Below, piece by piece: positions 53,669 to 64,000 of a stretch of 64,000 nucleotides of DNA; within the stretch, counting starts at the first letter, position 1, and each line of letters begins with the position of its first letter. Both the position numbers and the translations under genes were made by a program. This stretch comes from an uncultured Clostridia bacterium. Lineage in GTDB: Bacteria > Bacillota > Clostridia > Oscillospirales > Acutalibacteraceae. The notes under the pieces were generated by a model, which worked only from the letters and a program-made list of their open reading frames with translations, had not been told where the DNA came from and made no database searches. The DNA is taken from contig CALWUW010000025.1 in the NCBI GenBank assembly GCA_944384815.1, positions 1-64,000 on the forward strand, given 5' to 3'.

Positions 53669-54100
53669 TTGGAATTTCATTTTGCCAAAGGGCTGAAACA
53701 TATGCCGGACGCACGATTTATCCGGCAGCAAGTTTTTATCCAGGAACAAGGATTTTCTCCGGAAAATGAGTTTGACGAAACCGACGCTTTTGCCTGGCAC
53801 GGAATCCTTGTTATTGGAGAAAAAGCCATTGCCACCGCCCGTTTGTTCCCCGGAGAAGGAAAGACTTACAAAATCGGCAGACTTGCGGTGCTTCCGGAAT
53901 ACCGAAAGTGTGGTGCCGGCCGATGCATGATGGAACATCTGCTGGAAGAAGCCCGGAAATTAGGTGCTGAAAAGGTCCGTCTCAGCGCACAGGTCCAGGC
54001 GGAGGGCTTTTACAGAAAATTGGGGTTTTCTAAAACCAACGAGCCTCCTACAGAGGATGAAGGCGTGCCTCACGTATATATGGAAAAGCGGGTGCTGTGA
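53669..54100 (+). CDS. GNAT family N-acetyltransferase
   Basis: 143 residues. RLFPGEGKTYKIGRLAVLPE then YRKCGAGRCMMEHLLEEARK is the acetyl-CoA binding motif of ElaA/YjcF-like GNAT proteins. The start is TTG at 53669 behind GAGGAGGA; longer readings run into the methyltransferase gene. Five bases after its stop begins the orphan ABC fragment, so it sits at the edge of the duplicated region. Substrate unknown. Confidence 0.85.
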   Translation: MEFHFAKGLKHMPDARFIRQQVFIQEQGFSPENEFDETDAFAWHGILVIGEKAIATARLFPGEGKTYKIGRLAVLPEYRKCGAGRCMMEHLLEEARKLGAEKVRLSAQVQAEGFYRKLGFSKTNEPPTEDEGVPHVYMEKRVL

Positions 54101-54106
54101 AAGTTT

Positions 54107-54253
54107 TCCTCCTGCCGGTTCTGCGATACCATCGCCGTATTTGATCACGGCCAGATCGTGCAGAAAGGCAGCCATGAAGCGCTCCTTTCCGATGAAACCG
54201 GCAAATACCATGAGCTTTGGCACGCGCAGGCGCAGTATTACGTACACTCCTGA
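54107..54253 (+). pseudogene. Orphan 3' end of an ABC transporter gene
   Basis: An open frame of 48 codons ending in TGA with no start or upstream part. It encodes SSCRFCDTIAVFDHGQIVQK, then GSHEALLSDETGKYHELWHA and QAQYYVHS. This is the same C-terminus as the complete transporter ending at 59602, with two changes (H for N, Q for R). It is a leftover of duplication or replacement. Confidence 0.88.
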
Positions 54254-54265
54254 TTCTATCTTTGA

Positions 54266-54306
54266 TTTTCCGCCGTACCGATATTTGGTACGGCGGAATT
54301 TCTTTT
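54266..54306 (+). terminator. Terminator, copy A
   Basis: TTCCGCCGTACC pairs with GGTACGGCGGAA, then a T-rich tract. It follows the ABC fragment and is repeated at 59615-59655. Confidence 0.85.
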
Positions 54307-54358
54307 GCCTTTTTCCCCTACTAACTTACACTCCCCTTTTTACATTTTCCTTTTCAGC

Positions 54359-54388
54359 ATTGTGAGATAGAAAATTGTGTGGTATCCT
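54359..54388 (+). promoter_or_regulatory. Possible promoter of regulator 1
   Basis: TTGTGA, 18 bases, TATCCT with TG one base before the -10. A short inverted repeat CCTGTAT-ttt-ATACAGG (54386-54402) overlaps the -10. The same layout is present in copy B. The match to consensus is modest. Confidence 0.35.
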
Positions 54389-54429
54389 GTATTTTATACA
54401 GGACTTTATCCACTCAAGGAGGGATCCTT

Positions 54430-55128
54430 TTGACCTATCAAATCGCTGTCTGCGATGATCAGCAAGAGTCTCTGGAATACATTTCCGCTCTGGTGCAAAG
54501 CTGGGCGGAGCAGCTGGGAATCTCTGTGCGGCTCTCCTGCTTTCAAAGCGGCGAATCCTTTTTATTCACCTATGCCGAACAGAAAAATTTTGACATTCTG
54601 CTTTTGGACATTGAAATGAATGCCATAAACGGCGTGGAACTGGCCAAAACTATCCGAAAGGAAAACGACGGCGCACAAATTATTTTCATTACCGGCTTTC
54701 CCGATTACATCGCCGAAGGCTATGAAGTAGCTGCTTTGCATTACCTGATGAAGCCGGTTTCCTCTGAAAAGCTTCAGCAGGTTTTGAATCGGGCACTGGG
54801 AAAAATCAAAAAAAACGAAAAGTCTCTGTTCCTTTCTTTATCGGGAGAAACGGTGCGTATTCCGGTCTACGAGATCAAATATCTTGAGGTACAGCAAAAC
54901 TATGTAACCATTCACGCTCGGAGGGATTACACCGTTAAAAAGACTCTGGGCGAATTTGAACAGGAACTGGATGAGCGATTTTACAGAATGGGACGTTCTT
55001 ATCTTGTAAACCTTTCTTACATTGACAAAATCACCAAAACCAATGTGTTTCTTTCCGATGGATCCATTCTCCCCCTTCCCCGGGGGCACTATGAATCCTT
55101 AAACCGGGCATTCATTACCCATACATAA
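54430..55128 (+). CDS. LytTR response regulator, cassette 1
   Basis: 232 residues. The receiver domain has acidic pair DD at 9-10, phospho-acceptor Asp60 in ILLLDIEM and Lys108. The LytTR DNA-binding domain (about 135-230) carries IKYLEVQQNYVTIHARRDY and FYRMGRSYLVNLSYIDKI. It likely binds the 21-base repeats before the transporter genes of its own cassette. The start is TTG, five bases after AAGGAGGGA. Residues 1-128 are nearly the same as in the cassette 2 regulator; the rest is not. Confidence 0.92.
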   Translation: MTYQIAVCDDQQESLEYISALVQSWAEQLGISVRLSCFQSGESFLFTYAEQKNFDILLLDIEMNAINGVELAKTIRKENDGAQIIFITGFPDYIAEGYEVAALHYLMKPVSSEKLQQVLNRALGKIKKNEKSLFLSLSGETVRIPVYEIKYLEVQQNYVTIHARRDYTVKKTLGEFEQELDERFYRMGRSYLVNLSYIDKITKTNVFLSDGSILPLPRGHYESLNRAFITHT

Positions 55129-55140
55129 GCGGAGGCGGAT

Positions 55141-55803
55141 ATGAAACTTTTTTCCAAACAGATTGACAGGCGAATCGCTGCTTATCAGCGAGAACTGATT
55201 GAAACCCACTATGAAGAAGTGGAAAATATGTATAAACAAATCCGCGGTTGGCGCCATGATTACCGAAATCACATCCAAGTGATGAAAGCGTATGCGGCGA
55301 ACGGAGATCTGCATGCCATTCAAAAATATTTGGACGAACTGGAAACAGATTTATCTACGGTGGATACGGTGATCAAAACCGGAAACCCCATGGCGGACGC
55401 TATTTTAAACAGCAAAATTTCTCTTGCCAAATCCAGGCACGTCCCGGTGAAAGCGGATGTTTTTATTCCTCTTGCTTTAAAAACTTCCGAGATTGATCTA
55501 TGCGTCATCATCGGCAATCTTTTTGATAATGCCATTGAAGCCAGTATGGCGCTTCCCGAGGAAAAACGTCTGATCCGTATTTACATGGATATGAAAAATA
55601 CACAGCTCTATATTTCCTTTACTAATTTTACCGCCACCAAAAAACAGCAAAAGAAAAACGGAAAGTTTCAAACTACAAAGGGTAAAGGGCATGGTTTTGG
55701 TTTGGTCCGAATGGATACGATTATTGAACGTCTGGACGGATACATCAACCGAAACAGCGAGGACGGCGCATTTACCACAGAAATATTGATTCCGCAAAAA
55801 TAA
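55141..55803 (+). CDS. Soluble GHKL histidine kinase, cassette 1
   Basis: 220 residues. The H-box is GWRHDYRNHI (His39), the N-box NLFDNAIEA and the G-box GHGFGLVRM, as in AgrC/CitA-like kinases of the GHKL type that pair with LytTR regulators. Unlike AgrC it has no membrane helices: only about 30 polar residues precede the H-box, probably a coiled coil. Its input must come from a partner protein or the cytoplasm. It starts 12 bases after the regulator with GGAGG before the ATG. Confidence 0.9.
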   Translation: MKLFSKQIDRRIAAYQRELIETHYEEVENMYKQIRGWRHDYRNHIQVMKAYAANGDLHAIQKYLDELETDLSTVDTVIKTGNPMADAILNSKISLAKSRHVPVKADVFIPLALKTSEIDLCVIIGNLFDNAIEASMALPEEKRLIRIYMDMKNTQLYISFTNFTATKKQQKKNGKFQTTKGKGHGFGLVRMDTIIERLDGYINRNSEDGAFTTEILIPQK

Positions 55804-55805
55804 TG

Positions 55806-55868
55806 CAGTTCGTCCCCCAAAAACAACAATTCATCCCCAAATCCACACAGTTGGTAAAGAATGCAGTA
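55806..55868 (+). promoter_or_regulatory. Three 21-bp-spaced LytTR-type repeats, cassette 1
   Basis: CAGTTCGTCCCC at 55806, CAATTCATCCCC at 55827 and CAGTTGGTAAAG at 55848: the same core at exact 21-base steps, two helical turns. A TACACT -10 candidate follows at 55867 without a -35. This fits an activator-dependent promoter for the ABC pair. Confidence 0.72.
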
Positions 55869-55896
55869 CACTGCCATATAGAAAGGGGTGGAAATT

Positions 55897-57738
55897 TTGA
55901 AAAGTAAAAAAGAAAAAAAAGAGAAACCCAAGTATAATATGTGGCAGTGTTCCGCTTATATGATTGCACTTGCCTGGCGCGAAAAAGAGAAAAAAGTCCT
56001 GTTTTTGTGCTTACTACAGGTTTTTCTTGCCGTGGCAAGCAACCTGGTAAACCTTTATGTATCCCCAGCTATTTTATCAGTTGTGGAACGGCAAGCTTCG
56101 ATTACAGAATTGCTGACAACTGTTTTGATTTTCGTACTGCTGATTATGTTTTGCTCTGCTTCAACTTCCTATGTAAATTCCAATACCATACACGGAAGAA
56201 TTTCTGTCCGCTTGGCTATAATTTCCGATGTGAACAAAAAAGCTTGTACTACATCCTACCCTAACCTGACAGACGAAAAATTTATGAAGCTGGGTGGCAA
56301 ATGTGCACAAGCAACAAGCAATAATCGGGAAGCCACCGAAGCTGTCTGGGATACTCTTACATCGTTGGCCAAAAACAGTATAGGATTCGTTATCTATCTA
56401 TTTTTGTTGGTGTCGGTGGATATTTGGCTGATGTTCTTGATCTTACTGACCTCCCTGATCGGTTATTTTGTAAACAAGAAACTGACAGGTTACGGATACC
56501 GACATCGGGAGGAAGAGGGTAAGATTTCGGGAAAACTCTGGTACTCAATGATTTGGCAGGCTCGAAATAACACCGGGGCAAAAGATATTCGAATTTTCGG
56601 GATGAAGCCGTGGATGCAAGAAATCACCGACAAAGCAATGACGGCGTATACCGCCTTTCACCGCCGCGCGCAGAATGTCTACATCTGGGGCAGCATATTG
56701 GATTTGGTGCTAACGTTTCTGCGAAATGGGCTTGCTTATTTTGTTTTGATTCATCTGGTGCTATCAGGGAATTTAAGCGTTTCCGCCTTTCTGCTTTACT
56801 TTTCCGCGGTAGGGGGCTTTACGACATGGGTAACCGGAATTTTAGAAAGCATGACGACTTTGTACCGGCAAAGTCTTGATATTTCCACAATAAGAGAATT
56901 TCTGGAATACCCTGAGCCTTTTCGGTTTCAAGACGGGGAAAATCTTCCGGATTCTGCTGGTGTTCAGCACGAATTAAAGCTGGAACAGGTATCTTTCAAA
57001 TATCCGGGAGCGGAAAATTATACGCTAGAGAATATCAATCTCACCATTCACCCCGGAGAAAAACTTGCGGTTGTCGGACTTAACGGCGCAGGAAAAACTA
57101 CCCTTGTGAAGCTAATCTGCGGATTTTTCGATCCCACAGACGGAAGAGTTCTTCTTGACGGCAAAGATATCCGCAATTATAATCGGCGGGACTACTATGC
57201 GATGTTTGCAGCGGTATTTCAAAATTTCTCTCTGCTTGCGGGAACGGTGGCCGCCAATGTGGCACAGACAGATGAAAATTACGATATGGACCGGATAGAA
57301 GATTGCGTGAAAAAAGCAGGACTAACAGATAAAATTCATTCTTTAAAAGACGGCTATCAGACCAATTTAAACCGCACTGTTTATGAAGACGGCGCGGAGC
57401 TGTCCGGCGGGGAAACGCAGAAGCTGATGCTCGCACGTGCCCTTTATAAAAAGGCTTCTTTTATCATTTTGGATGAGCCGACCGCAGCCCTTGATCCAAT
57501 TGCGGAAGCAGATATGTACAACAAGTATAACGAAATGACAAAAGGCTGTACTTCCGTTTATATTTCCCATCGCTTGGCATCTACACGCTTCTGCGACCGA
57601 ATTCTCCTAATCAGTAATCACAAAATAGCGGAAGAAGGAACCCACGAGGAATTGCTGAAGTTATCCGGTGAATACGCACGATTATTTGAAGTCCAGAGTA
57701 AATATTACCGGGAGGAGGGTATTTATGAAAAAGGATAA
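55897..57738 (+). CDS. ABC exporter half-transporter, cassette 1, first subunit
   Basis: 613 residues: six-helix membrane domain (about 35-330), then an ATPase domain with Walker A GLNGAGKTT near residue 394, Q-loop FQNFSLLAG, signature LSGGETQK, ILDEPTAALDP and SHRLAS. All catalytic residues are present. No C39 peptidase domain, so it does not cut leader peptides. The TTG at 55897 is chosen behind AAAGGGGTGG; a GTG three codons earlier is too close to it. It pairs with the next gene (14-base overlap). Codon use looks more AT-rich than in the housekeeping genes. Confidence 0.9.
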   Translation: MKSKKEKKEKPKYNMWQCSAYMIALAWREKEKKVLFLCLLQVFLAVASNLVNLYVSPAILSVVERQASITELLTTVLIFVLLIMFCSASTSYVNSNTIHGRISVRLAIISDVNKKACTTSYPNLTDEKFMKLGGKCAQATSNNREATEAVWDTLTSLAKNSIGFVIYLFLLVSVDIWLMFLILLTSLIGYFVNKKLTGYGYRHREEEGKISGKLWYSMIWQARNNTGAKDIRIFGMKPWMQEITDKAMTAYTAFHRRAQNVYIWGSILDLVLTFLRNGLAYFVLIHLVLSGNLSVSAFLLYFSAVGGFTTWVTGILESMTTLYRQSLDISTIREFLEYPEPFRFQDGENLPDSAGVQHELKLEQVSFKYPGAENYTLENINLTIHPGEKLAVVGLNGAGKTTLVKLICGFFDPTDGRVLLDGKDIRNYNRRDYYAMFAAVFQNFSLLAGTVAANVAQTDENYDMDRIEDCVKKAGLTDKIHSLKDGYQTNLNRTVYEDGAELSGGETQKLMLARALYKKASFIILDEPTAALDPIAEADMYNKYNEMTKGCTSVYISHRLASTRFCDRILLISNHKIAEEGTHEELLKLSGEYARLFEVQSKYYREEGIYEKG

Positions 57739-59602
57739 AAAGCTGTTAACATGGCGTGAAGCATGGAAGTTAAACAGGCGAGCTTTTGCTCTAATTTATA
57801 AGCGATGCCCTCAGATGATTGTATCTCGGCTTATTTGTGTCGCATGGGACGCACTGACGCCTTATATCAGCATTTATCTTTCCGCTTTGCTGATTACTGA
57901 ACTGACTGAAACCCGAAATTCCACTGTACTGACCAGACTTGTCCTCGTTATTCTGATTTCGGCGGCACTGATTTCTCTTGCCGCGGCTTTTCTGCATAAA
58001 TGGCGCGATGTTGCATGTGCCGGACTGTATTATAAGGTGCAGCAGATATTTTTCGAAAAAATGATGAGTATGGACTACCCGGATGCGGATAATCCCAAAA
58101 CACATGAGATGTATAATACTATCGAGCAAAACCGCAACGGTGGCGGATGGGGACTTAATCAGGTATATGGTCACATTGAAAGGATTCTTTCGGCACTCCT
58201 TTCCTTGCTTGGCGGTGTTGCTTTAACAGTATCGCTTTTTACAAGCCGTGTGCCGGACTCCTCCGGTGGATATACCGTACTGAACCATCCGTTGTTTGTG
58301 CTGCTGATTATCGCGATTATGCTGATGATCACCTGCGTTGCACCTATGCTTGCCAATAAAGCGGGAAGCTATTATGCATTGAATTCTGATTCTCATAATT
58401 TAGGAAATCGTTTGTTTGGATATTTTGGTTTTTTAGGCTTCCAAAAAAACTTGTCAGAAGACATACGCATTTACCGGCAGGATTTACTTTGTGACAAATT
58501 TAGTAAAGACAAAACAGGAGCATTTTCCTCGAAAGGAATATTTTCAAAACTTGCAAGAGGGCCAATGGGTTTCTACTATGCAGCTTCATCGGCTATATCC
58601 GTTCTATTTACGGGAGTTGTCTATGTTTTTGTATGCCTAAAAGCGTTAGGTGGCGCTTTTGGAATCGGCGCCGTTACACAATACGTATCGGCTATCACGC
58701 GTGTTGCGGAAAGCATCGGCTCCTCCATAGGAATTATGGGGGATATGCGGAACAACGCTTCCTTCCTAAAGTTAATTTTTGAATTTCTGGATATTCCCAA
58801 CCGGATGTATCAGGGGAGCCTGACGGTAGAAAAGAGAATAGACCGGGATTATGAAATTGAGTTTTGCAATGTTTCGTTTCAATATCCCGGAAGCGAAACG
58901 TATGCGCTGCGAAATATTTCGATGAAATTCCGTGTAGGCGAACGACTTGCTGTCGTAGGGATGAACGGAAGCGGGAAAACCACCTTTATTAAGCTGCTTT
59001 GCCGTTTGTATGACCCAACGGAAGGTGAAATATTGCTAAATGGCATCAATATTAAGAAATACAACTACAATGAATATATGTCTGTTTTTTCCATTGTCTT
59101 TCAGGATTTCAAATTGTTTGCTTATCCGCTTGGTGAAAATGTAGCGGCAAAAACTAACTATGTGGAATCAAAAGCAAGACAGTGCTTACTGGATGCCGGA
59201 TTTAAAGAGCGACTACAGGAAATGCCCAATGGACTAAACACGTATTTATACAAAGATTTCGAAGAAAACGGCGTAGAGATCTCCGGCGGCGAAGCTCAAA
59301 AGATCGCTCTTGCCCGAGCGCTTTACAAGGACGCTCCTTTTATCATTCTGGACGAACCCACCGCCGCTTTGGACCCCATTGCGGAAGCGGAAGTTTACGA
59401 AAACTTTAATAAGATCGTAGGAAACAAAACCGCCATTTACATCAGCCACCGGCTTTCCTCCTGCCGGTTCTGCGACACTATCGCTGTATTTGATAACGGC
59501 CGGATCGTGCAGAAAGGCAGCCACGAAGCGCTCCTTTCCGATGAAACCGGCAAATACCATGAGCTTTGGCACGCACAGGCGCAGTATTATGTACACTCCT
59601 GA
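57725..59602 (+). CDS. ABC exporter half-transporter, cassette 1, second subunit
   Basis: 625 residues, membrane domain then ATPase (GMNGSGKTT, FQDFKLFAYPLG, ISGGEAQK, ILDEPTAALDP, SHRLSS). It likely forms a heterodimer with the first subunit for export or for peptide sensing. From about 59275 on the codons turn G+C richer (gcccgagcg, gaacccaccgcc), unlike the preceding part, so the gene may be a recombinant. Its last 49 codons recur as the fragment at 54107-54253. GGGAGGAGGG precedes the ATG. Confidence 0.9.
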   Translation: MKKDKKLLTWREAWKLNRRAFALIYKRCPQMIVSRLICVAWDALTPYISIYLSALLITELTETRNSTVLTRLVLVILISAALISLAAAFLHKWRDVACAGLYYKVQQIFFEKMMSMDYPDADNPKTHEMYNTIEQNRNGGGWGLNQVYGHIERILSALLSLLGGVALTVSLFTSRVPDSSGGYTVLNHPLFVLLIIAIMLMITCVAPMLANKAGSYYALNSDSHNLGNRLFGYFGFLGFQKNLSEDIRIYRQDLLCDKFSKDKTGAFSSKGIFSKLARGPMGFYYAASSAISVLFTGVVYVFVCLKALGGAFGIGAVTQYVSAITRVAESIGSSIGIMGDMRNNASFLKLIFEFLDIPNRMYQGSLTVEKRIDRDYEIEFCNVSFQYPGSETYALRNISMKFRVGERLAVVGMNGSGKTTFIKLLCRLYDPTEGEILLNGINIKKYNYNEYMSVFSIVFQDFKLFAYPLGENVAAKTNYVESKARQCLLDAGFKERLQEMPNGLNTYLYKDFEENGVEISGGEAQKIALARALYKDAPFIILDEPTAALDPIAEAEVYENFNKIVGNKTAIYISHRLSSCRFCDTIAVFDNGRIVQKGSHEALLSDETGKYHELWHAQAQYYVHS

Positions 59603-60163
59603 CCCTATCTTTGATTTTCCGCCGTACCGAATATCGGTACGGCGGAATTTCTTTTGCCTTTTTCCCCTACTAACTTGCACTCCCCTTTTTACATTTTCCT
59701 TTTCAGCATTGTGAGATAGAAATTTGTGTGGTATCCTGTATTTTATACGGAACTTTATCCATTAAAGGAGGGATCCTTTTGACCTATCAAATCGCTATCT
59801 GCGATGATCAGCAAGAGTCTCTGGAATACATTTCCGCTCTGGTGCAAAGCTGGGCGGAGCAGCAGGGAATCTCCGTGCGTATCTCCTGCTTTCAAAGCGG
59901 CGAATCCTTTTTATTCACCTATGCCGAACAGAAAAATTTTGACATTCTGCTTTTGGACATTGAAATGAACGCCATAAACGGCGTGGAACTGGCCAAGACT
60001 ATCCGAAAGGAAAACGACGGCGTACAAATTATTTTCATCACCGGCTTTCCCGATTACATCGCCGAAGGCTATGAAGTAGCCGCCTTGCATTACCTGATGA
60101 AGCCGGTTTCCTCTGAAAAGCTTCAGCAGGTTTTGAATCGGGCACTGGGAAAAATCAAAAAAG
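59454..60163 (+). repeat. Direct repeat copy B (about 710 bp)
   Basis: Counterpart of 54105-54814. It spans the 3' end of the second transporter gene, its terminator, the promoter region and the receiver domain of regulator 2. Confidence 0.9.
59615..59655 (+). terminator. Terminator, copy B
   Basis: TTCCGCCGTACCG pairs with CGGTACGGCGGAA, then TTTCTTTT. It ends cassette 1 before regulator 2. The loop differs from copy A but the stem is kept. Confidence 0.85.
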
Positions 60164-60516
60164 AGAAAAAATTTTTATGTTTCTCCGCAAACGGAGAAAC
60201 GGTGAGGATTGCCGCCGACGAAATTCTATTTGTGGAAGCCTTTGCACATTCTTGTACCATCACAACGGAAAATGGACGTATAGAAGTAAACGCCAGCATT
60301 ACTGCTGTAGAGAAAAATCTTCTGGAAACCTCTTCCCAAAACTTTATACGCTGCCATCGTTCTTACATTGTGGGTGTTAAATTTATTAAAAGCATTGGAA
60401 AAGCAGAACTCACCTTGGATAACGGCGCAAAAATTCCTCTTTCCAGAGGAAAATACGCGCCTGTAAACCAAGCCTTTATCCGTTATTTCAAAGGAGAATC
60501 GTCATGGGACTCATGA
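59779..60516 (+). CDS. LytTR response regulator, cassette 2
   Basis: 245 residues. The receiver (1-128) differs from regulator 1 at only about five residues, with Asp60 and Lys108 kept. The LytTR domain shares perhaps a third of its residues: ILFVEAFAHSCTITTENGRI and FIRCHRSYIVGVKFIKSI. The start is TTG behind AAAGGAGGGA, as in copy A. It overlaps the kinase gene by 13 bases. Confidence 0.92.
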   Translation: MTYQIAICDDQQESLEYISALVQSWAEQQGISVRISCFQSGESFLFTYAEQKNFDILLLDIEMNAINGVELAKTIRKENDGVQIIFITGFPDYIAEGYEVAALHYLMKPVSSEKLQQVLNRALGKIKKEKKFLCFSANGETVRIAADEILFVEAFAHSCTITTENGRIEVNASITAVEKNLLETSSQNFIRCHRSYIVGVKFIKSIGKAELTLDNGAKIPLSRGKYAPVNQAFIRYFKGESSWDS

Positions 60517-61172
60517 ATCTGTTATTTGGGAAAATGATTGATCGCAGAATTGCAGAATACCAAAATGACTTGATTACAAAACACTGCGACGAGGTTCAGA
60601 ACATTTACAGAACCATGCGCGGTTGGCGGCATGATTATCACAACCATATTCAAACTTTGCTGGCTCTCTCCGGGGATGAAAGCAAAACAAAAGAATATTT
60701 GCTGAAACTCAATGACGACCTGAGCAAAGTGGATACTGTTCTGAAAACCGGAAACGTTATGGTGGACGCCATCTTAAATTCCAAACTTTCCCTTATTTAT
60801 TCTAAAAACATCCGAACCAATGCGAAAGCCGTTGTTCCGGAAAATTTAAAAATATCGGAAATTGATCTATGCGTGATCATTGGAAATCTGTTGGACAACG
60901 CCATGGAAGCCTGCCTTCGGCAGACGGAAAAAGATGACCGTTTCATCCGGGTATTTATTGGTGTTATGAAAGACCAGCTTTATATTTCCGTTTCTAACTC
61001 TGTAGGCGGAGAAATTCACAAATCCGGGAAAACATATGTATCCAGCAAAAACAGCGCAACCCACGGTTTTGGTCTTATGCGCATCGATCGTTTAGCCGGA
61101 AAATATAACGGTTATGTAAACCGCCAAAACGAGGACGGTGTCTTCGCCACCGAGGTATTGCTGCCTCTTTGA
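60504..61172 (+). CDS. Soluble GHKL histidine kinase, cassette 2
   Basis: 222 residues. H-box GWRHDYHNHI (His43), N-box NLLDNAMEA, G-box THGFGLMRID. As in cassette 1 there is no membrane sensor domain. It shares roughly half its residues with the cassette 1 kinase, far less than the receivers share. AAAGGAG precedes the ATG at 60504, inside the end of the regulator gene. Confidence 0.9.
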   Translation: MGLMNLLFGKMIDRRIAEYQNDLITKHCDEVQNIYRTMRGWRHDYHNHIQTLLALSGDESKTKEYLLKLNDDLSKVDTVLKTGNVMVDAILNSKLSLIYSKNIRTNAKAVVPENLKISEIDLCVIIGNLLDNAMEACLRQTEKDDRFIRVFIGVMKDQLYISVSNSVGGEIHKSGKTYVSSKNSATHGFGLMRIDRLAGKYNGYVNRQNEDGVFATEVLLPL

Positions 61173-61206
61173 TACCATTGGTGCAAAAATTCATACCATT
61201 CGTGCA
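61172..61206 (+). promoter_or_regulatory. Two 21-bp-spaced LytTR-type repeats, cassette 2
   Basis: ATACCATTGGTGCA at 61172 and ATACCATTCGTGCA at 61193, 13 of 14 bases the same and exactly 21 apart. They begin on the last base of the kinase stop. A TATGCT -10 candidate is at 61231. The repeat differs from that of cassette 1 apart from a TT-S-G-T core. Confidence 0.75.
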
Positions 61207-61261
61207 GAAATCGCCCAAACTGCGCCGCAGTATGCTAACATAACGGCAGGAGGTGGGGAAT

Positions 61262-63082
61262 GTGAAAAAGAAAAAAGCATCCTACCCTTTTTTATCCAAC
61301 ATGAAATATTTGTTTGCCGGTATATGGCACGTGCAAAAGAGAGCTACTGTAATTATTTTGCTGCGAGCTCCTCTTCTCGTTGTCATATCCTTCTTGGGAA
61401 TTTATCTTTCCAAAGAAGTTGTGGCAGCCGTCTCTGCCGAGAAAACAGTGGAAGAACTTTTGTGGACAATCGCCATTATCAGCGGCGGAATTCTGTTTTG
61501 CAGCGTTTGTGAAAAAATCTTCTACGCCATAATGTACAAACTGCTGATGGCTGCAGACCTTCACTGGCAAATGATTTTGTTTGAAAAAACGGTTTCCATG
61601 GATTACGAAAATTTGGAAAATCCGGACGGCCTTACAAAACTTTCCAAGGCAATGGGCAATTGCGGAAGCGAAGACAGCGTTACCCGCATAGCCGCGGAGG
61701 TTTTTTCTTCTCTTTTTTCCAACGTGATCGGAATTATAACCTATTCCGCAACCTTGTCTGTACTGAGCCCATGGATCACGTTGGTTGTAACCGTCAGCAC
61801 ACTTTCCGGTTTTTTCTTGCTGAAGCAAATTGGAAAATGGAGCTATAAAAACCGAGATCAATGGGCTGTTTACGATCGAAAGCTGACCTACCTGAAAGTC
61901 AATTCCGGGGATTTTCAGCGCGCCAAAGATATACGGCTTTACAAAATGACCCATTGGTTTATGAATGTTTTTGCAGACACTTTGAAAAAACGTATTGTTT
62001 GGTATAAAAAGGAACAAGCTTTTGGATTTAAAGTGGACCTGGGCATGGCTGCGCTTAACTTTCTGCGAGAAGGGTTTGCGTATGGGTTTCTGGTTTTCTT
62101 AATTTTTAATCAGGGCATGTCTGTTTCTGATTTTGTGTTGTATTTTGGCTTAATCGGTGGTTTCGCTACGTGGCTGCTGGGATTTGTCCGTAATATCGAA
62201 GCTTTGAACCGAAGTCATTTAGGCGTCTGCGAAATCCGGGAATTTCTGGATATTCCCGATCATCAAAATCACAGAAAGGGTATACCTTTGCCTAGCGAAA
62301 CGTTTAGTATTGAATTTAAAAACGTATCCTTCCGATATCCCAAAAACAATACAGACACTATACAGAATCTCAGCTTTAAAATTGAAAAAGGGGAAAAGAT
62401 CGCCATTGTGGGCCTGAATGGAGCCGGTAAAACAACTTTGGTAAAGCTTATGTGCGGGCTTTATACCCCCACAAGCGGCGTCATCTTAATCAACGGAGCT
62501 CCTGTTTCAAGCTATAACATTATAGATTACTACTCTTTATTCTCTGTTGTATTTCAGGAAATTTTCATGCTCCCTATGAGCATCGCAAGAAACGTATCCG
62601 CATCCAAAGAAGAAAACACCGATAAAGACAAGGTTATGAAAGCTATACAGCTTGCAGGATTGGCCGAAAAAATAAATTCTCTGCCTAAGGGAATCGAGAC
62701 AAATTTAGTGAAAAGTGTATACGACGACGCTATAGATCTTTCCGGAGGAGAACTTCAGAAACTTGCTTTGGCCAGGGCTCTTTATAAAGGCGGTAAAGCC
62801 TTGATTTTGGATGAACCTACTGCAGCATTGGATCCCATTGCCGAAAGCCGAATATACCGTGAATACGATCATATGTCCCAGGGCCATACTTCCGTGTTTA
62901 TCTCACACCGCCTTGCCAGCACACGATTCTGTGATAAAATTTTTCTTTTAGAGAACGGACGTATTGTTGAATCGGGAACACATCAGGAACTTTTGGATTT
63001 TGGAGGCAAATATTCTGAATTGTTTGAAATCCAAAGCCGGTATTACAGAGAGGATGTGTCTGCAAGTGAAATGGACGGATAA
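61262..63082 (+). CDS. ABC exporter half-transporter, cassette 2, first subunit
   Basis: 606 residues: six-helix membrane domain, then ATPase with GLNGAGKTT, FQEIFMLPMS, LSGGELQK, ILDEPTAALDP and SHRLAS. Complete catalytic set, no peptidase domain. Homologous to the first subunit of cassette 1 but clearly divergent. The GTG at 61262 is eight bases from AGGAGG; a GTG three codons earlier overlaps that site. The next transporter gene starts before its end. Confidence 0.9.
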   Translation: MKKKKASYPFLSNMKYLFAGIWHVQKRATVIILLRAPLLVVISFLGIYLSKEVVAAVSAEKTVEELLWTIAIISGGILFCSVCEKIFYAIMYKLLMAADLHWQMILFEKTVSMDYENLENPDGLTKLSKAMGNCGSEDSVTRIAAEVFSSLFSNVIGIITYSATLSVLSPWITLVVTVSTLSGFFLLKQIGKWSYKNRDQWAVYDRKLTYLKVNSGDFQRAKDIRLYKMTHWFMNVFADTLKKRIVWYKKEQAFGFKVDLGMAALNFLREGFAYGFLVFLIFNQGMSVSDFVLYFGLIGGFATWLLGFVRNIEALNRSHLGVCEIREFLDIPDHQNHRKGIPLPSETFSIEFKNVSFRYPKNNTDTIQNLSFKIEKGEKIAIVGLNGAGKTTLVKLMCGLYTPTSGVILINGAPVSSYNIIDYYSLFSVVFQEIFMLPMSIARNVSASKEENTDKDKVMKAIQLAGLAEKINSLPKGIETNLVKSVYDDAIDLSGGELQKLALARALYKGGKALILDEPTAALDPIAESRIYREYDHMSQGHTSVFISHRLASTRFCDKIFLLENGRIVESGTHQELLDFGGKYSELFEIQSRYYREDVSASEMDG

Positions 63083-64000
63083 GATTCGTATTACCATACG
63101 AGGATTTAAAACCCTGAACCAACTGCTTCCGGGCTATTTGCTCTGTAGCGGTTTGAAAGCGATGTTTGAAGCGCTGCTGCCCTTTATTAACATTTATATG
63201 TCCGGTCAGGTGATTACGGCAATTGCCAACCAAAGCAGTTTGCAGGATCTGGGGATTTTAGTGCTCATTACGGTATCTTTAAATTTTATTACAACCTTGC
63301 TGATCAATACTTTAACGAGAATTACCAATGCAAAAGGAGACGCCTTTTGGCATGTGGAAAAGCTTCCGTTGGATCAAAAAATTCAGACCATGGATTATGA
63401 ATACGTAGAGGACAGCAACGTCCACGCCATGCGGGAAATGATCGATGTGAAAGCTCGTTCTGTAGGGCGCGGATTTCCTAGACTGTACTGGTTGTATTTT
63501 GGCCCAGGGATCAAAAGTCTTTTTCAGCTTTTATTTTCCGTAGCCTTGGTAGCCAGTGCGTTTATAGCAAAACCTGTGGGCGGAGATGGAATCTGGCGCA
63601 TGGTTTTTTCTCCATGGGGAACGATCCTCCTGATCCTTCTGTTTATTCTAAGCCTTGTATGGGATACCTGCAATAACGCAGCACGGGCAAAAAAAGAATC
63701 TCGGATCTTTGAAGTTTTTTCATCTGCTAACAGAGTTTACAGTTATTATGAGGTTTTATTCATAGGATATAAGGGAGGAAAAGATTTAAAGCTATGCAAT
63801 TTGAAAGACTCTGTCCTGCATGAACTAAATTCAGCCGACAACGCTATCATTCAGGTAATGGGAAAATGGCAGAAGATGTCCGCAGGTTATGCATCCCTAT
63901 CCGCCATAAACACTACCGTAATGAATGCCATTATTTACGCTTATGTTGCCGTAAAAGCATTATTTGGTGCCTTTGCGGTGGGAAATATCGTGCAATATGT
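63066..64000 (+). CDS. ABC exporter half-transporter, cassette 2, second subunit (cut by window end)
   Basis: Open to the last base: about 311 residues of membrane domain only (MKWTDKIRITIRGFKTLNQL, LPFINIYMSGQVITAI, then FAVGNIVQYV at the edge, matching FGIGAVTQYV in the cassette 1 partner). The ATPase domain lies outside. The start is either GTG at 63066 or ATG at 63054; AGAGAGG touches the ATG, so I prefer the GTG. It overlaps the first subunit gene, as in cassette 1. Confidence 0.85.
   Translation, partial: MKWTDKIRITIRGFKTLNQLLPGYLLCSGLKAMFEALLPFINIYMSGQVITAIANQSSLQDLGILVLITVSLNFITTLLINTLTRITNAKGDAFWHVEKLPLDQKIQTMDYEYVEDSNVHAMREMIDVKARSVGRGFPRLYWLYFGPGIKSLFQLLFSVALVASAFIAKPVGGDGIWRMVFSPWGTILLILLFILSLVWDTCNNAARAKKESRIFEVFSSANRVYSYYEVLFIGYKGGKDLKLCNLKDSVLHELNSADNAIIQVMGKWQKMSAGYASLSAINTTVMNAIIYAYVAVKALFGAFAVGNIVQY

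Follow-up and report, generated by a model that had tools for sequence, protein, structure and literature searches.

Tandem regulator-kinase-exporter cassettes in a clostridial genome and the predicted control of their exporters

What could a histidine kinase respond to when no transmembrane (TM) helix is found in it, and when its gene lies between that of a response regulator (RR) and those of two ATP-binding cassette (ABC) half-exporters? This question is raised by a stretch of 64,000 nucleotides from an uncultured Clostridia bacterium of the Acutalibacteraceae (contig CALWUW010000025.1, positions 1 to 64,000; hereafter the window). Near its 3' end, open reading frames (ORFs) and Pfam place the order RR, histidine kinase (HK), first half-exporter (ABCa) and second half-exporter (ABCb) twice in tandem on the plus strand, as a preliminary description made from the letters alone had reported. 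Cassette 1 consists of RR1 (54430..55128, TTG start), HK1 (55141..55803, 220 amino acids), ABCa1 (55888..57738) and ABCb1 (57725..59602, with an ATG at 57725 in an ORF open from a GTG at 57668). Cassette 2 consists of RR2 (59779..60516), HK2 (60504..61172, 222 amino acids), ABCa2 (61253..63082) and ABCb2 (62964..64937), which runs past the window end at 64000 (L010:964-2937). Computation supports a conserved gene order, an operator, an exporter-only regulon, a reduced kinase, exchange of the transmembrane domains (TMDs) and a mosaic array. Regulator and exporter genes very probably form a closed circuit, judging from the predicted operators. Each cassette could also be a self-contained, substrate-inducible exporter for peptide natural products with the transporter as sensor, to which we give a little less than an even chance.

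Both RRs score above the Pfam cut-offs for Response_reg (63.5 and 67.2 bits; cut-off 30.2) and LytTR (64.0 and 68.1 bits; cut-off 22.6). The kinases are of the GHKL type, with HATPase_c_5 above its cut-off, SPOB_a (in HK2 with 23.4 bits, under its cut-off of 28.1), and intact H- (RHDYRNH in HK1), N- and G-boxes. ABC_tran was found in the three whole half-transporters; Pfam gave no domain in ABCb2, tested only up to the window end, and no window half-exporter matched PF00664 at E <= 0.001. The catalytic motifs of the exporters are intact (invariant motif columns), and a structure model of ABCa1 (pLDDT 88) matched MsbA in Foldseek with E 3.7e-32, with further matches to PCAT1, TM287/288 and TmrAB. 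We classify the half-exporters, of which ABCa1 alone was modelled, as predicted type IV ABC exporters with fused TMD and nucleotide-binding domain (NBD). The preliminary description was right that they carry no peptidase domain (no C39 by Pfam in the cassette proteins), and that no precursor, modification enzyme or membrane sensor is seen among the ORFs read from contig positions 48000-82000.

The gene order is also conserved outside this genome, a point that the preliminary description had made a check of its reading. The named-genome loci were the best 80 of 305 relatives and came from Oscillospiraceae, Lachnospiraceae, Clostridium oryzae, Enterococcus phoeniculicola, Treponema, Fusibacter and others. 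RR-HK-ABC-ABC was present at 68 of these 80 loci, a count that admits ABC genes split into ORFs (e.g. L104, L119, L145). The other 12 comprise seven loci cut by a contig end (L095 without an RR in view), one with a short ABC part (L106) and four without a same-strand downstream ABC pair, among which L096 has the pair on the other strand and L137 has its exporters upstream. Close relatives of HK1 occupy 33 places in 26 of 300 family genomes (E up to 2.2e-50, the next at 6e-29; hand count). Pooling the named loci, the family loci and the window, with all ORFs taken, gave 80 non-redundant complete cassettes from 83. At one further arrangement (L085:8001-16297), a single RR-HK is followed by two exporter pairs of the cassette exporter family.

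Direct repeats with a period of 21 bp mark the gap between the kinase gene and the exporter genes. Repeats of at least 9/10 occurred in 29 of 62 gaps compared with 0.3 expected by shuffling, and at this level no other period from 12 to 39 exceeded 5; those of at least 8/10 occurred in 45 of 62 compared with 2.4. No such peak was found before the RR (2 of 80 regions at 9/10 or better; 0.6 expected). Half-site types include TTCRTCCCC, CCATTSGTGCA and TTGRCATCAAA. Boxes resembling a -10 element (TANNNT) peak 28-33 nt past the second half-site, with 46 boxes compared with 7.3 expected in 47 cassettes. In the window, operator 1 (TTCGTCCCC-12 bp-TTCATCCCC; 55809..55838) precedes a putative -10 box TACACT (55867..55872), and operator 2 (ACCATTGGTGCA and ACCATTCGTGCA with a 21-bp period; 61174..61206) precedes a putative TATGCT (61231..61236); both boxes were assigned to the ABC promoter by sequence and position. 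These sites match the 9-12-9 layout described for LytTR operators (PMC6193735). We read the tandem 9-bp half-sites, 21 bp apart, as a predicted LytTR-type operator of the exporter promoter.

The operator sequence appears to follow the LytTR domain rather than the receiver. Operator similarity correlated with LytTR identity at 0.46 and with that of other domains at 0.28-0.40. Given the receiver, the partial rho for LytTR was 0.38 (0 of 1000 permutations); given LytTR, the partial rho for the receiver was 0.02 (407 of 1000 permutations). A partial correlation of 0.19 with the kinase remained, compared with 0.33 for LytTR given the kinase.

Scans of whole genomes place these operators before exporters. 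Operator 1 has one perfect match and two sites with 2 mismatches in its own 2.0-Mb genome (control 1), and operator 2 has a single match and no other up to 3 mismatches. In six other, hand-picked genomes (G001, G002, G124, G189, G215 and G281), the CCRTTCRTGC-type operator gave 7 perfect matches and its reversed control none. Four of these are the cassette gaps of G001, G002, G124 and G215; the other three precede exporter pairs of this family that are unlinked to RR-HK, one pair in G124 with one operator and one in G215 with two; the two genomes share a genus. A single site with 2 mismatches was found in G281 and no site in G189. In G281, the RR-HK genes (L052) and an exporter pair (L204) lie on separate contigs, and 76 nt ahead of the ABCa ORF of L204 lies a perfect TTCGTCCCC operator. 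Both operator types were absent from the other 12 of 13 scanned loci (10 exporter loci without RR-HK; L052 and L063, which have RR-HK or a kinase but no exporter). As a side observation, the HK-ABC gaps of L079, L081, L083 and L090 contain, 3' of the second half-site, its inverted copy and a T-run; operator and terminator-like hairpin may thus overlap there.

If the regulator acts on its own exporter, what acts on the kinase? Across 25 aligned kinases with 40-90% identity to HK1, the residues of the H-, N- and G-boxes vary little or not at all, and Pfam found no ligand domain in the kinases. The cytosolic kinase of the preliminary description holds for HK1 and HK2 themselves but not for all relatives in the same gene order: among the 79 kinases in a tree, 49 have no TM helix, 25 have one near the N-terminus and 5 have several. 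That description had also said that its reading would fall if homologues lay in a characterised lantibiotic or quorum locus whose sensor is known; the multi-TM kinases at L142, L143, L144, L146 and L154 resemble such a case in kind only. HK1 and HK2 sit in different TM-less groups. The distribution of TM-less kinases requires four changes on the tree, at least three of them at starred branches. The tree was made with a quick method, 31 of 79 inner branches are open, and kinases missed by the H-box pattern (L123, 1 of 80; L040, 1 of 4 outgroup rows) are not in it. Because its outgroup branches are too long (4.5-7.2) and one row is misplaced, its root is unusable and gives no direction to loss or gain of TM helices. 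The window kinases nevertheless look like the reduced end of a family whose same-order members keep one or several TM helices. A kinase structure model reached pLDDT 77.8, and no claim is based on it.

Such reduction might mean that the kinase has lost its input and supplies basal phosphorylation only, with the RR driven by cross-talk or small phosphodonors and a near-constitutive exporter. The repeated change of the TM part on the undirected tree would fit this, as would L208 and L209, where an RR and an exporter occur and no kinase was found in the DNA examined. However, the near-invariance of the catalytic boxes suggests selection for catalysis, and both the operators and their spacing from the -10 box are conserved. 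We consider a kinase without input improbable.

The exporters themselves point in another direction. Cassette 2 shares 82-85% identity with L067, L069 and L114 in the kinase and 80-85% in the ABCb NBD, whereas both TMDs share only 26-28% and the ABCa NBD 45-52%. For comparison, pairs whose kinases are 40-60% identical have median identities of 24-25% in the TMDs and 50% in the ABCa NBD. Similarly, L061 and L115 share 97% in the kinase, 94% in the ABCb NBD, 70% in the ABCa NBD and 37-41% in the TMDs. The controls were 27 pairs of other exporters, reciprocal best matches from four genomes; the 13 with an NBD identity of at least 76% keep a TMD identity of 49-93% (hand count). Identity breaks sharply at ABCb residues 361-400. 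Given the low identity of the ABCa NBD, the exchanged block comprises ABCa and the ABCb TMD; hence, the path of the substrate is replaced while the kinase and the ABCb NBD are retained.

Since the signalling parts are constant while the membrane part of the pump is swapped, the pump itself may be the sensor. The suggestion of the preliminary description that the transporter, or a cue inside the cell, gives the signal agrees both with an operator circuit that is closed and with a kinase that remains constant while the TMDs are swapped. We place the transporter as sensor somewhat below an even chance. More specifically, and more tentatively, the exporter pair could be the receptor of the two-component system: the TMDs would bind the substrate, the constant ABCb NBD would talk to the soluble kinase, a swap of exporter blocks between cassettes would retarget the system, and LytTR and operator would move together as a matched pair, so that parallel circuits stay separate.

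The kinase may instead sense alone: it would sit peripherally on the membrane and detect membrane stress or packing with its short N-terminal helix, and the exporter would be output only. Many TM-less kinases indeed start with a short hydrophobic stretch, e.g. MGLMNLLFGKMI or MLFDKLI, relatives carry a TM anchor at the N-terminus that leaves almost no residues outside, and exporters without a kinase exist. Yet the kinases remain 82-85% identical despite TMD exchange, so that a single general cue would need to fit all exporters, and a ligand domain is absent from them. We regard sensing by the kinase alone as unlikely, though less so than a kinase without input.

A C-terminal QxxYY tail is found on 75 of 80 ABCa and 79 of 80 ABCb proteins, compared with 1 of 44 controls (some of which are one protein in two loci). 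It was considered as a kinase-docking motif and rejected; because exporters without RR-HK carry it too, it is a family mark only. Anti-phage defence was likewise set aside, as PADLOC gave ATPase-type matches to the exporters only and none to RR or HK.

What, then, might the exporters carry? Relatives of ABCb (E <= 1e-100) occur in at least 56 of 300 family genomes, and these counts are lower bounds because at most 4 candidates were scored per genome. We hand-picked 20 exporter places at which no close relative of HK1 lies nearby, and called RRs and kinases around them with all ORFs taken. Radical-SAM peptide clusters were present at two of these places. L206:246-10562 (minus strand; G195:C19) holds an exporter pair, three radical-SAM proteins (including B12 and SPASM), PqqD, an acyl carrier protein (ACP), a nucleotidyltransferase and a Cys-rich 38-amino-acid candidate precursor ORF without a family match. 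L212:2924-11249 holds a radical-SAM protein, an ACP-like ORF (by reading), an exporter pair and an S8 peptidase with a TIGR04066-like part, below cut-off. These clusters imply that the exporter class handles modified peptides at least partly. The cassettes look like regulated versions of this class, and we consider a peptide substrate rather probable. No RR-HK pair was found in either cluster, and no biosynthesis genes were shown next to the cassettes (motif test only); a radical-SAM-like ORF lies within 6 kb of 5 of 80 cassettes, by motif alone. Among the other places, an RR and a multi-TM kinase stand near the exporter at L207, L210 and L219. At L208 (5289-10216) and L209 (5331-10226), both in reverse complement, a LytTR-type regulator and an ORF of 85-87 amino acids with three TM helices accompany the exporter pair, with 21-bp repeats (9/10 and 8/10) between regulator and exporter.

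The cassettes could also provide the export for a peptide signalling or bacteriocin circuit, with its precursor and enzymes encoded elsewhere in the genome. AgrA/AgrC-type proteins are typical of peptide circuits, and the sibling exporters of L206, with its PqqD-like protein and candidate precursor, and of L212, with its S8 peptidase, would suit such a role. However, no family of small ORFs recurred at more than 5 of the 80 homologous cassettes, a test that short precursors can escape; short-ORF clusters at up to 5 loci were taken as chance frames in conserved gap or antisense DNA. The scarcity of radical-SAM-like ORFs near the cassettes, the TM-less kinases without an extracellular receptor, and the perfect operator matches before exporters only also speak against it. 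We therefore think such a circuit rather implausible, and a quorum or lantibiotic locus was rejected as the default, with precursor and enzymes not seen near the cassettes.

For the substrate-inducible exporter, we infer the following sequence of events. RR and HK would have a promoter of their own, and a second one, 3' of the kinase gene, would drive the exporter pair. The substrate would most likely be a peptide natural product, for instance a competitor's radical-SAM RiPP (ribosomally synthesised and post-translationally modified peptide), and on encountering it the exporter would pass its working state to the sensorless kinase. The kinase would autophosphorylate and then phosphorylate the RR, which would bind its own tandem half-sites 21 bp apart and raise exporter transcription. 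New specificities would arise by exchange of the exporter block and of the LytTR/operator block between cassettes, with the kinase core, and often the receiver and the ABCb NBD, staying through the exchange.

Several observations weigh against this proposal. Some kinases retain one or several TM helices. Repeats of at least 8/10 are found in only 47 of 66 gaps, operator similarity also correlates with domains other than LytTR, and a single RR in each of G124 and G215 would have two exporter pairs to serve. The ABCa NBD, at 45-52%, is no better conserved than in unrelated pairs (median 50%), so that the ABCb NBD is the only constant part of the exporter. Finally, neither an RR nor a kinase was seen in the DNA examined at 15 of the 20 exporter places (one of them on a 3.6-kb contig) and two others have an RR but no kinase, which implies that the exporter works without the pair.

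How does this layout relate to known systems? In agreement with the preliminary description, which knew of no such system, we found no description of this module in the open-access papers that were searched. BceAB is FtsX/MacB-like, BceS has two TM helices and BceR is OmpR-like. The cassettes have neither a BceAB-type transporter nor a two-TM kinase with an OmpR-type regulator; they have a type IV half-exporter pair, a LytTR regulator and a GHKL/HATPase_c_5 kinase without TM helices. They share with Bce-type modules (BceRS-BceAB), for which flux-sensing is proposed (PMC10314905), a two-component system beside the ABC transporter that it induces and the lack of a dedicated sensing domain. If the transporter is indeed the sensor, signalling of this kind would extend from Bce modules to type IV exporters and soluble kinases, with a natural series of kinases with several, one or no TM helices serving the same target.

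The nearest described case is AtcS-AtcR of Treponema denticola, compared with the cassettes by its published description. It likewise combines a LytTR regulator, a kinase without a sensing domain and a nearby ABC transporter, and its authors suggest BceS-like sensing (PMC12070737). In contrast to the cassettes, AtcS is membrane-bound and the gene order differs: HK TDE0032 precedes RR TDE0033, with the transporter TDE0028-0029 adjacent (PMC12070737). Many genes change in an atcS mutant (PMC12070737). AtcR is described as the only LytTR protein of spirochetes (PMC12070737), unlike L132, L139 and L156, loci labelled Treponema that have RR-HK-ABC-ABC with LytTR regulators and in which binning errors are possible. 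LytTR Regulatory Systems (HdrRM, BrsRM and kin) likewise have 9-12-9 direct repeats just before the -35 box, and two types are ABC-linked (PMC6193735). They pair the regulator with a membrane inhibitor and have their operator before the regulator operon, whereas the cassettes have a kinase gene after the regulator and the operator before the exporter genes.

Likeness to Agr lies in the kinase and regulator families, although NCBIfam scores against AgrC and AgrA are far under the cut-offs. Unlike Agr, the window kinases have no multi-TM receptor and no precursor gene was seen beside the cassettes; for AgrD and AgrB this rests on the small-ORF test, since their models were not run and the genome was not searched. 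Precursor, modification enzymes and C39 peptidase, which define lantibiotic or bacteriocin loci, were not seen in the ORFs and Pfam results given above. The clostridial radical-SAM clusters L206 and L212 (Clo7bot / TIGR04066-like, weak NCBIfam matches) share the half-exporter family and the QxxYY tail but lack RR-HK, and the cassettes lack adjacent biosynthesis genes by the motif test. New here are the 21-bp operator with its -10 spacing, the grading of kinase TM helices, the TMD exchange and the mosaic array. The dozens of LytTR domain-operator pairs form a data set for the LytTR DNA code, and the cassettes list likely peptide pumps of gut Clostridia with probable inducible promoters.

The tandem array itself has a mosaic structure. 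The preliminary description gave an exact 5349-base offset between the cassettes, which stands for the RR starts (54430 and 59779) and the surrounding 300-bp, 94% repeat, but not for the kinases (5363) or ABCa (5365). In 100-base blocks, the cassettes share 92-98% DNA identity at 54101-54800 (ABCb scar, terminator, RR promoter and receiver) and 92-95% at 59301-59600 (3' end of ABCb), with 44-80% in between. Likewise, the receivers are 95% identical and the last 54 residues of ABCb 94%, compared with 36% for LytTR, 47-60% for the kinases by part, 29% for the ABCa TMD and 27% for the ABCb TMD. The window pair tops 1382 cassette pairs with a kinase identity of 48-56% in receiver and ABCb-NBD identity. 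L044, from another genus, resembles cassette 1 in HK (90%), ABCa (85-89%) and LytTR (81%), with only 66% in the receiver. The two cassettes are therefore mosaics with near-identical ends, between which lies a payload of LytTR, HK, ABCa and ABCb.

The site of the array can be compared with two congeners, G001 and G002, which have an open GNAT-hydrolase fusion of 459-461 amino acids here and no cassette before the next gene. In the window, the GNAT gene is truncated (53669..54100), the half that reads as an alpha/beta hydrolase is missing, and the array begins directly after the GNAT stop; the array thus appears to have replaced half of this host gene. The preliminary description had missed that the array starts (54105-54298) with about 150 bp of an ABCb gene (54105..54253) and a terminator-like hairpin with a 14-bp stem (54268..54298), a near-copy of which lies 3' of ABCb1 (59617..59647). 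This orphan ABCb 3' end is probably the remnant of a further, lost cassette. At L044 (G091), whose cassette is the one most like cassette 1, an ORF read as a large serine recombinase begins where the cassette ends, a hint of mobility. The serine recombinase motif was found in the flanks of that one of 80 cassettes, and of none with a narrower motif, as well as in the flanks of 2 of 20 exporter loci (L205, L219). A plasmid-borne trait was rejected, with one plasmid record only at E <= 1e-20 (29.5% identity), and 48 records of a phage collection matched at E <= 1e-8 (best 46% identity).

Downstream of cassette 2, ORF reading gives phosphate propanoyltransferase, uracil-DNA glycosylase, Sir2 and MoxR. 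A second class of loci (L075-L078) has a short GHKL kinase of about 240 amino acids and an RR before two ABC ATPases and what read as two ABC-2-type permeases.

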